Shown here: positions 2,005 through 52,125 of the stretch, one piece after another | Position numbering within the stretch: position 1 is the first letter of the stretch | How the letters are laid out: every line of letters starts with the position of its first letter | Assembly: GCF_027012695.1 (NCBI RefSeq) | Contig: NZ_JALUYR010000047.1 | Span: forward strand, 1 to 64,000 | Origin: Thermococcus sp. | GTDB taxonomy: Archaea; Methanobacteriota_B; Thermococci; Thermococcales; Thermococcaceae | Length of the DNA stretch: 64,000 nucleotides | Direction of reading: 5' to 3' | The notes under the pieces: generated by a model | Told to the model about the DNA's origin: nothing | What the model saw: the letters and a program-made list of their open reading frames with translations, nothing else | Database searches by the model: none | Made by a program: the position numbers and the translations under genes

Positions 2005-3273
2005 TCATCCACCTGCCTTCTCTCCACCGGGGCGGTATATATTCTTTCCGAGCCATTCATCCAGCGTCTTCTGTCTCGCGAGGGTTCCGAGGATGTAGCT
2101 CCTCTGGAGATACTTCTCGAATGGATGATCAAGGCGCCTCCTTATGGCATCAAGTGCCTCGTTAAGGGTCTCAAAGCGGCCTATCGGATTGCTTAGCGCC
2201 TTCCTCACCCCGAGGCGAATCTGCCACACTCCAACAGGGGCGTAGTATTCCGGCGTAACCTCTCTGAAAACAACGGCCCTTGCCTGCCTCCTTCTCCCGC
2301 GAAGCGCTTCGAGGACACTTAAGCGGGCCGCGTGATAGGCACCGGCGGTTTCCTTAACGTACTCCCTCCTTCCCCTGAAGTCCTCGTAGTCGTGGATGAC
2401 GTTGGGTTCCGAAGCGCCGAAGAGCGAGTCCTTCAGCCAGACCTCCAAAAGCTCGAAGGCATAGCTCTCGGGCATCAGCAGTACTGCATAGCGGTTGCCC
2501 ATGAAGCGGTAGAAGTAGACCTCGTAGTCGTTGATGAGCGGGTAGTGGAGAATCTCGCGCCTCAGGTTCTTTCCTATCGTGTCCTGCACCGCTGTGATGC
2601 TCCACCTGGTGGGGACGAGCCTCCTGTCCACGCCGAGAAGTCCGGCAGAGAGGAGTCTTATGATGTAGTACTCGTCGAAGCCCCAGTTATAAAGGCGGGT
2701 TATCGCCTGCTCCGCCTTAAGCTCGTCGTTCACAACATAATCTGTCCTGCGGGGGATTTTTGGGTTCTCGGTCAGCTCGAAGTCGAGGAGTTCCGCCTTC
2801 GGTCCCAGCGGTGGCGCGAACTCGCTCGGGAGAACCTTAAGGACGGGCTTTTTCTTGAGGATTACCTCGCTGTCGACGGGCTTAACGCTCATCGCAAGCT
2901 CCTGAACCTCGCCCAAGATTCTGCCGCTCTTCCTGACGTTCACATCCGCTCTCGTCTCACCCATGACTAGGAGGGAGCGGTAGTAGAGAATGTCCCTTAT
3001 CGTTTTGTCCCCCCATTTGAGAGGGTTGTCGAGGTAGTCGGTCTTCCCCTCAATGGGAGGAACTAGGGGGCCGATTCTAACCTTTGGATAGCCGTACTCG
3101 CCAACGAATATGCTCGGCGGAGAGGAGCCGAAGAGGTGCCGCTTGTTTAACCGCTGCTCAACACTGCGGGCTACCCGGAACCTCTCGAGAATCGGGCAGG
3201 TCGGCCTGCCACAGAGGAGCTTCCTGCCCTTGCATATCGCGCAGAGTTTCGAGTTGAAAACCGGGGCACTCAT
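2005..3273 (-). CDS. nreA: DNA repair protein NreA
   Basis: The 422-residue protein starts MSAPVFNSKLCAICKG. It has the N-terminal Cys cluster of the Nre family (CAICKGRKLLCGRPTCPIL) and the conserved body VGEYGYPKVRIGPL, with the C-terminal Nre domain after about residue 200. Near the end, QKTLDEWL fits a PCNA-interacting (PIP) box. Known archaeal Nre proteins act in DNA-damage repair and bind PCNA through such a motif. ATG 3273 is chosen because an upstream TATA-like box at 3294-3306 implies a nearly leaderless mRNA, and because the family begins just before the zinc motif; the extra upstream frame is spacer. Confidence 0.88.
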   Translation of the reverse strand: MSAPVFNSKLCAICKGRKLLCGRPTCPILERFRVARSVEQRLNKRHLFGSSPPSIFVGEYGYPKVRIGPLVPPIEGKTDYLDNPLKWGDKTIRDILYYRSLLVMGETRADVNVRKSGRILGEVQELAMSVKPVDSEVILKKKPVLKVLPSEFAPPLGPKAELLDFELTENPKIPRRTDYVVNDELKAEQAITRLYNWGFDEYYIIRLLSAGLLGVDRRLVPTRWSITAVQDTIGKNLRREILHYPLINDYEVYFYRFMGNRYAVLLMPESYAFELLEVWLKDSLFGASEPNVIHDYEDFRGRREYVKETAGAYHAARLSVLEALRGRRRQARAVVFREVTPEYYAPVGVWQIRLGVRKALSNPIGRFETLNEALDAIRRRLDHPFEKYLQRSYILGTLARQKTLDEWLGKNIYRPGGEKAGG

Positions 3274-3622
3274 CAAGGGCAGGTACGTGGGGTGGTATTT
3301 ATGGTTTGTTCCGGTGAAAACTTTGCTCAGTAAAGTTCTGGGGGGTGTGGAGGCGTTAGCCTCCCGGAGGATTAATGGATAAGGAAGGTGGGGAAACGTA
3401 GTTTCCCAGGTTTGAGAGAAAACGGGGTTGTGGGGCGAAACCCCACTCCTGGGGTTTGAGAGCACAGGAAACTTTGCATTGCAAAGTTTCATCAAAGTTC
3501 GTGATTCCTCGTTAATACCCCCCTTTCAAGGATTTCACGCGGAATTCATAGCATTAATGAGTGGATTGTCTGGAAGGGGCTCTTTTCAGAAGGTTCCTCC
3601 CACTGCGCTCCGAAGGAGCGCT
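3274..3622. repeat. Gene-free spacer filled with short perfect hairpins
   Basis: No credible gene is seen here. The stretch carries several inverted repeats: AACTTT/AAAGTT at 3318-3336, GGGAAAC/GTTTCCC at 3391-3407, GTGGGG/CCCCAC at 3430-3446, GAAACTTTGCA/TGCAAAGTTTC at 3468-3490 (11-bp arms, one-base centre) and GCGCTCC/GGAGCGC at 3605-3621. The phrase GGTTTGAGAG follows two of them, at about 3409 and 3453. The AACTTT pair occurs twice with different loops, which suggests a small repeat family. The spacing is irregular and there are no constant repeats, so it is not a CRISPR. Confidence 0.6.
3294..3306 (-). promoter_or_regulatory. TATA box of nreA
   Basis: The minus strand reads AACCATAAATACC, ending 21 bases before the nreA ATG. 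That spacing places transcription start at or next to the start codon, so the message is probably leaderless. Confidence 0.5.
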
Positions 3623-3670
3623 AAAAAGTCGATAATTTTCCGCCAGCGCTTGCGCAAGCAGGGGCTGTTA
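3623..3670 (-). other. Conserved tRNA-trailing element, copy 1 (behind tRNA-Cys)
   Basis: Directly after the CCA of tRNA-Cys the minus strand shows CAGCCC, ten variable bases, AAGCGCTGGCGGAA, then AATT, a GACT and a T run. The same order and spacing occur behind tRNA-Leu at 51669-51716. In this copy the variable part contains a self-complementary GCTTGCGCAAGC (3648-3659). It could be a 3' trailer or terminator element, a small RNA, or a trace of integration at tRNA genes. Confidence 0.6.
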
Positions 3671-3745
3671 TGGAGCCGGGAGGGGGATTTGAACCCCCGT
3701 AAAGCGGATCTGCAGTCCACCGCCTCACCTCTAGGCTATCCCGGC
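3671..3745 (-). tRNA. tRNA-Cys (GCA)
   Basis: The minus strand begins GCCGGGATAGCC and folds to a full cloverleaf. The acceptor GCCGGGA pairs with TCCCGGC, the anticodon arm GTGGA-CTGCAGA-TCCGC has anticodon GCA, the T arm is GGGGGTTCAAATCCCCC, and CCA is encoded. It lies 19 bp behind tRNA-Ser(GCT) on the same strand and probably shares its transcript. Confidence 0.96.
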
Positions 3746-51580: not shown

Positions 51581-51668
51581 GCGGGGGTTGCCGAGCCTGG
51601 TCAAAGGCGGTGGACTCAAGATCCACTCCCGCAGGGGTTCCGGGGTTCAAATCCCCGCCCCCGCACCA
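51581..51668 (+). tRNA. tRNA-Leu (CAA)
   Basis: GCGGGGG pairs with CCCCCGC in the acceptor. The anticodon arm GTGGA-CTCAAGA-TCCAC gives CAA. The long variable arm (TCCCGCAGGGGTTCC) marks a class II tRNA. CCA is encoded at 51666-51668. Confidence 0.96.
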
Positions 51669-51716
51669 TTCAGCCCTTTCTGACGAAAGCGCTGGCGGAA
51701 TATTGCTGACTGTTTC
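51669..51716 (+). other. Conserved tRNA-trailing element, copy 2 (behind tRNA-Leu)
   Basis: Two bases after the CCA: CAGCCC (51671-51676), ten variable bases, AAGCGCTGGCGGAA (51687-51700), TATT, TGACT and GTTTCTT. Order and spacing agree with the element behind tRNA-Cys at 3623-3670. Unlike that copy, the ten-base part is not self-complementary here. It is followed by about 100 bp without any gene. Confidence 0.6.
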
Positions 51717-51795
51717 TTAGGTCATATATAACTCGGATTTCCATCTTAGGAAGTGCAAAGTTCGATTGGTGAAGTTGAGAAAGCCCGTGGGATAA

Positions 51796-51819: not shown

Positions 51820-52125
51820 ATGGCTGAGGCGAGACCGGTGGGACGAGAGATAACCGAGGAAAAGCTCCTGAAGTATTTTAAAATAACTGAAGAGGCCCTT
51901 AAAACCCTCGAAGTTGCCGTTCACGAGAAAAGCCTCCTCTGGGTTGCCGCTCAGGATTTTCTGACCATGGCCAAGAGCTATTTTGAGGACGCAAAATACT
52001 ACTACGGGAAAGGTGACTACGTGACCGCTTTTGCTGCCCTGAACTACGCCCATGGCTTCATTGATGCAGGCGTAAGACTCGGGGTTTTCAGGGGAGAGGA
52101 TGACAGACTCTTTGCCTTCGGCTGA
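51820..52125 (+). CDS. DUF357 protein, HEPN-like helical bundle
   Basis: The 101-residue helical protein reads [62 protein letters not shown], the signature of DUF357, a small archaeal family resembling TPR or HEPN bundles. Its function is unknown. The message seems leaderless. The next gene starts 10 bp after its stop, so the two probably form an operon. Confidence 0.82.

Follow-up and report, generated by a model that had tools for sequence, protein, structure and literature searches.

The 3′ ends of tRNA genes are classic landing sites of large integrating elements. Casposons, archaeal transposons with inverted ends and 14–15-bp target duplications, can insert there without altering the gene; in A. 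boonei, TCAAATC is the sequence that the casposase recognises, upstream of the target at tRNA-Pro (PMC6614799, PMC4046053). A 2024 review of prokaryotic MITEs records archaeal examples in Sulfolobus, Halobacterium, Haloquadratum and others, Thermococcus and Pyrococcus being unmentioned (PMC10969869). REP/BIME repeats and their RAYTs combine two hairpin types of alternating orientation into mosaics whose stems are kept by complementary change (PMC2817692), while the sRk48 and sRk52 ncRNAs of Pyrococcus abyssi are repeated, structured intergenic sequences related to the 3′ ends of OrfB (TnpB) genes and equipped with a K-loop (PMC3124441). Here we describe short palindromic repeats that take the tRNA 3′ address at roughly a third of the tRNA genes in the genomes examined, and the same address at guide RNAs. 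Our literature search returned no description of this family, although subscription journals were thinly covered, so that its absence from the literature is unproven. The novelty lies in the family and in its tRNA-end address, not in the category.

The element is probably a terminal hairpin of short palindromic, non-coding, non-autonomous mobile DNA repeats that form a family in Thermococcaceae and are similar in kind to MITEs and BIMEs. Like MITEs and ERIC-type repeats, the units are dispersed between genes as short imperfect palindromes that have inverted ends and no coding content; truncated derivatives accompany them, and direct repeats flank some copies. Unlike them, they are tied to the 3′ flanks of tRNA and guide RNA genes at near-fixed spacing, end in stem-loops rather than linear inverted repeats and have yielded no parental IS. 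We file them as MITE-like rather than as MITEs because no autonomous parent with the same ends was found at Y1 or TnpB loci or in plasmid, phage and viral collections. The resemblance to REP/BIME systems covers the two hairpin types, their alternating orientation in mosaics and the complementary change in their stems, but the Thermococcaceae repeats number in tens, not hundreds, Y1 genes are missing from most host genomes and the inner flanks of the hairpins are GCGGAA and ATCAAAG. With casposons the units share inverted ends and a harmless position at tRNA 3′ ends, whereas their 15–20-nt direct repeats occur only at non-tRNA copies; casposons are moreover large and carry cas1 and polB, while these units are gene-less and also occupy non-tRNA sites. 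We take the likeness as a resemblance rather than as membership. The sRk48 and sRk52 ncRNAs are likewise repeated and structured, but our repeats have no link to TnpB and no exact match in genus g3, which is probably Pyrococcus.

The window, by which we mean the whole 64,000-nucleotide stretch of DNA analysed, holds two copies. The first lies behind a tRNA-Cys(GCA) gene with encoded CCA (3671..3745, minus strand; ARAGORN and Rfam), from which a 3-nt linker, TAA (3668..3670, minus), leads to a terminal hairpin that we call L (CAGCCCCTGCTTGCGCAAGCGCTGGCGGAA; 3638..3667, minus), recognised by pattern match and hairpin covariation. There follow an inner flank with a T run that may be an archaeal terminator (3623..3637, minus) and a GC-rich inner stem, GCGCTCC-TTC-GGAGCGC (3605..3621, minus), the counterpart by sequence of the central stem of intact units. 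The unit closes with a second terminal hairpin, R (GAAACTTTGC-AAT-GCAAAGTTTC; 3468..3490, minus), whose R-end motif AAAGTTTCATCAAAG (3483..3497, plus) is the only one that a motif search found in the window. Repeats extend as far as the promoter of the downstream nre gene (2005..3324, minus; Nre_N and Nre_C domain matches), the 3′ end of which overlaps a C/D guide RNA, sR7 (Rfam; 1957–2012, minus). The second copy follows a tRNA-Leu(CAA) gene, also with encoded CCA (51581..51668, plus; ARAGORN and Rfam), after a 2-nt linker, TT (51669..51670, plus). Its L hairpin (CAGCCCTTTCTGACGAAAGCGCTGGCGGAA; 51671..51700, plus; pattern match) is followed by a unit remnant (51701..51785, plus) that, compared by eye with the copy in relative G054 (L417), has apparently suffered an internal deletion, and the promoter region of the next gene (DUF357; 51820..52125, plus) bounds the element.

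These data bear out the first-pass annotation in placing an element 2–3 nt after the CCA of both tRNA genes and in finding it at neither tRNA-Ser gene of the window. The pattern CAGCCC-N10-AAGCGCTGGCGGAA has exactly two matches in the window even when up to three mismatches are allowed, against none expected (100 shuffles), and the core AAGCGCTGGCGGAA has eight exact matches in the source genome. Other details of that description hold more narrowly. A spacer of exactly ten variable bases is correct for both window copies, but across the family, where 6–14 were allowed, the length varies; the tail of (C/T)GACT and a T run belongs to one subtype rather than to the family; and the reported extent of 48 nt is too short, since the element continues to about 250 nt in intact copies.

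The L hairpin is an imperfect structure in which CAGCC pairs with CGCTG around a kept C.C mismatch, and its loop and upper arms account for the ten variable bases. At the fourth variable pair, 20 of 40 distinct L versions have G-C and 19 have T-A; at the fifth, 28 have C-G, four G-C and three T-A. Arm pairing in this set, for which the conserved foot was itself part of the search pattern, reached 163, exceeding all of 2000 re-dealings of the arms (maximum 155). Independently found tRNA-anchored copies show foot changes on both sides with the C.C mismatch kept, as in CAACCC..GCGTTG (by eye). In one genome (G033, locus L432) the hairpin loop behind tRNA-Leu(CAA) contains an insert consisting of two further hairpins.

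The L hairpin is one end of a nested imperfect palindrome with about 250 nt conserved downstream, in which GTGC pairs with GCAC, GGGTTT with AAACCC, GTTTCA with TGAAAC and GGCGYCC with GGRCGCC, and which closes with a second hairpin. There are two kinds of terminal hairpin, L being CAGCCC..GCTG followed by GCGGAA, and R, read inward, a hairpin followed by ATCAAAG; behind other tRNA genes the R end occupies the very spot that L takes. Units measure about 90–300 nt, are non-coding, intergenic and multi-copy, and stand singly or in arrays, their ends inverted (L..R) and their conserved inner flanks found in both orientations. Array L375 is bounded on either side by an L hairpin, the two being inverted relative to each other: one follows tRNA-Val, and the other directly precedes the promoter of the next gene. 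An operon-internal copy in two genomes (L055, 1330–1542; L031, 1498–1689) is read through by an ORF of 63–70 codons, which an ATGA overlap couples to the preceding gene.

We asked at which level this structure is maintained. A unit acting as RNA read through from the tRNA would be expected to fold better in the sense direction and to favour G.U over A.C among its imperfect pairs. For 77 dissimilar units the mean fold z-score was −2.71 on the sense and −2.64 on the antisense strand (P=0.71), and single mismatches comprised 25 G.T against 21 A.C, a share matching the expectation from base composition. The absence of sense-strand or G.U bias points to a structure kept or generated at the DNA level, a statement that applies to the unit as a whole, as its terminal hairpin may still have an RNA role. 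These results bear on the proposal, made in the first-pass annotation, of a small regulatory RNA processed from tRNA read-through transcripts. Strong predicted folds, with a mean z of about −2.7, would suit such an RNA, but the antisense strand folds equally well, G.U pairs are not enriched, core sequences diverge strongly between copies and Rfam covariance models matched only the neighbours (tRNA, Pab160, sR36), not the element. We regard this origin as highly improbable.

The repeats, which the first-pass annotation proposed to look for in other Thermococcales, recur behind tRNA genes in most of the Thermococcaceae sampled. The L hairpin is present in 57 of 61 genomes of the genus, and a stricter L pattern in 65 of 94 Thermococcaceae genomes and five of six genera (reversed control, 0); the stricter pattern was found neither in the nine genomes of g3, where exact matches to the L hairpin and the R motif are also lacking, nor in 21 genomes sampled from the rest of the phylum. 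With one mismatch allowed, the R motif AAAGYTTSAYCAAAG occurs 65 times in G010 and 61 times in G012, both complete genomes (reversed control, 0 and 1). Family genomes G019 and G031 contain R motifs without the L hairpin, and G003 and G060 show nearly the opposite, so that the two ends appear partly independent.

To describe the placement of the element we sampled 95 distinct copies by exact pattern, partly from loci chosen by the search tool, which makes the resulting percentages estimates. ARAGORN tRNAs precede 63 of them, and three more follow the 3′ part of a tRNA by eye (∼66/95). For the 63, the distance from CCA to L is 3 nt in 52, 2 nt in seven, 1 nt in three and 6 nt in one, whereas the linker itself varies (CAA, TAA, TTA, GTA and others) and the tRNAs represent 17 isotypes. 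Position and spacing are non-random, as had been claimed from the two window copies, and a fixed distance combined with a variable linker suggests that distance is gauged from the tRNA rather than copied with the linker. Guide RNAs precede four copies, at about 4 nt for the two at the H/ACA RNA Pab160 and about 2 nt for the two at the C/D RNA sR36, as measured from the Rfam model ends; other L copies sit at gene junctions. Frequent occurrence away from tRNA genes had been named beforehand as an argument against the association: about 30% of copies do lie elsewhere, but largely at other RNA 3′ ends, at gene junctions and in the outer arrays of tRNA flanks. In the complete genomes, R motifs fall within 1 kb downstream of a tRNA in 44 of 65 cases (68%) in G010 and 46 of 61 (75%) in G012, against 1.7 and 1.6% of random positions, and L hairpins do so in 9 of 11 and 8 of 10. 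Of the two L hairpins per genome outside this range, one stands behind a tRNA-Ser with an intron, a gene missing from the Rfam results.

Such placement is also what the main rival, a function at the RNA 3′ end, would lead one to expect. The hairpin might be a signal in the pre-tRNA 3′ trailer that, with the T run, terminates transcription, or that positions tRNase Z or shields the RNA from exonucleases, its copies having spread by usefulness. In its favour are the flush position of the hairpin, 3 nt behind tRNAs and guide RNAs, the strong primary-sequence conservation of CAGCC/CGCTGGCGGAA with covarying arms, and a T4 run, which 67 of the 77 L-type trailers have within 100 nt of the CCA (median position 44) and which R-type trailers have at a median of 8 nt. 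However, only 9 of 44 tRNAs in G010 and 8 of 43 in G012 have a flush L (R adds 4 and 8), the L-carrying subset differs from species to species with losses at orthologous tRNAs, and a T4 run within 30 nt is rarer with L (2/77) than without the element (14/68). Some copies, moreover, are found at the Shine–Dalgarno region of the next gene, in antisense orientation to it, and the whole unit shows no sense-strand RNA bias. We judge an RNA signal unlikely as the explanation of the family.

Comparison of orthologous flanks revealed turnover. Across the sampled genomes the tRNA-Leu(CAA) gene is followed by L, a decayed L, R or nothing, and the tRNA-Cys gene by L in the window and by R in relative G015, after the same TAA linker. 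The spacer between tRNA-Val(GAC) and the promoter of the DUF357 gene ranges from about 80 to 680 nt; there, as read by eye, G004 and G028 differ by one unit sitting inside an R hairpin, and the G002 and G022 sequences look like palindrome deletions. Within-genome copies are mostly 73–93% identical, indicating little recent movement. Different tRNA flanks of one genome have 300–700 nt in common at 75–97% identity, often whole two-unit arrays. This would suit an account without transposition, in which the conserved T-arm/acceptor half and the hairpin seed ectopic gene conversion from one tRNA locus to another and so spread the downstream arrays. Against it, the linkers between CCA and hairpin differ in sequence (CAA, TAA, TTA, GTA) while their length is constant, and the copies at C/D and H/ACA RNA genes and at operon junctions with direct repeats are without tRNA homology. 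Gene conversion as the sole process seems to us doubtful and rather unlikely.

Five copies at operon junctions are flanked by direct repeats: TTCGGGAGGGAGTGA at L033 (15/15 positions identical), TCATTCTCTCACCCCC at L052 (16/16), TCATTCTCTCACCACC at L055 (16/16), TCATTTCTTCCCACCYCCCA at L333 (19/20) and GCCATTCAYARCACCCCCA at L350 (about 18/20). At 15–20 nt they resemble target-site duplications, although all five cover translation-start or stop regions (Shine–Dalgarno sequences, start and stop codons), where selection could act. In a chance control, Shine–Dalgarno/start contexts shared at least 15 nt in 0 of 2346 pairs taken from the window. L055 has a third, 20-nt copy of its repeat further away, at another gene start. 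Copies adjacent to tRNA genes have no direct repeat longer than 9 nt at their far end. Insertion with a 15–20-nt duplication thus appears well supported by sequence comparison at gene junctions, whereas at tRNA genes we only infer it.

A mobile DNA repeat family, our preferred reading, would work as follows. The units would move, or would have moved, by DNA transposition that creates a target duplication; the transposition would recognise something in or just behind tRNA genes, and insertion would for that reason leave the RNA intact; and nested insertion, gene conversion and palindrome deletion would afterwards reshape the resulting arrays. More tentatively, and as a possibility that we hold to be less than probable, the repeats may reflect a tRNA-addressed transposition system of hyperthermophilic archaea, in which gene-less, hairpin-ended units insert with a duplication of ∼15–20 bp at a set distance behind tRNAs of nearly every isotype and behind guide RNAs, with an enzyme that might be Cas1/casposase-like or host-encoded. 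If transposition is the true explanation, the family would serve as a model of how a minimal DNA element targets safe sites, and would indicate what to look for in the search for a recombinase in Thermococcales.

We searched for such an enzyme or a carrier. An IS200/IS605 origin was rejected, as Y1 and TnpB genes searched in 61 genomes gave no shared ends, and no autonomous parent with the same ends was present at 20 Y1 and 30 TnpB loci; at four of the 30 TnpB loci one-mismatch end matches lie at a constant position, with otherwise no ends. Y1 (PF01797) occurs in 15 of the 61 genomes and is absent from G010, G015 and G032, each with 10–12 copies. Copy number is unrelated to TnpB count (Spearman ρ=−0.09, 49 genomes) and correlates weakly with Y1 (ρ=0.28, P=0.048), a relation contradicted by several copy-rich genomes that lack Y1. 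Locus L342 was considered as an autonomous copy and rejected, its downstream gene looking like an ordinary resident gene. Plasmid, phage and viral collections contained no match to the element and no carrier.

The first-pass annotation had also suggested a mark left by integrating elements. This was the best supported of its options where it is taken to mean a short palindromic mobile repeat, but not where it means the attachment-site scar of an integrated plasmid or virus that used a tRNA gene. Two copies could speak for scars. In locus L034 of genome G004 (461–1500) the 3′ part of a tRNA-His overlaps a 345-aa tyrosine-recombinase-like ORF, the first codons of which read through the tRNA on the opposite strand, as in attR; in locus L008 of the source genome (contig C123) the 3′ half of a tRNA-Val, with a hairpin behind it, is joined on its upstream side to unrelated sequence and is probably what an integration left behind. 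However, the L034 hairpin is native flank, common to the intact locus in G020 (91% over 711 nt), most copies stand behind complete tRNAs, and the plasmid, phage and viral collections lack the element. Scars are, in our estimate, the most improbable account of the family. In a third genome (G017, L430), tRNA-Leu(CAA) is followed by very AT-rich, foreign-looking DNA that is likely an integrated element.

Homology shared between tRNA loci makes the arrays likely substrates for rearrangement. They may also interrupt genome assemblies, as several copies are situated close to the end of a contig. Finally, near arrays, in the window at about 3350–3440 (minus strand) and at L309, L313, L348 and L001, a GC hairpin is followed by ACAACCCC or ACACCCCC, a motif that could be H/ACA-like or another repeat family.
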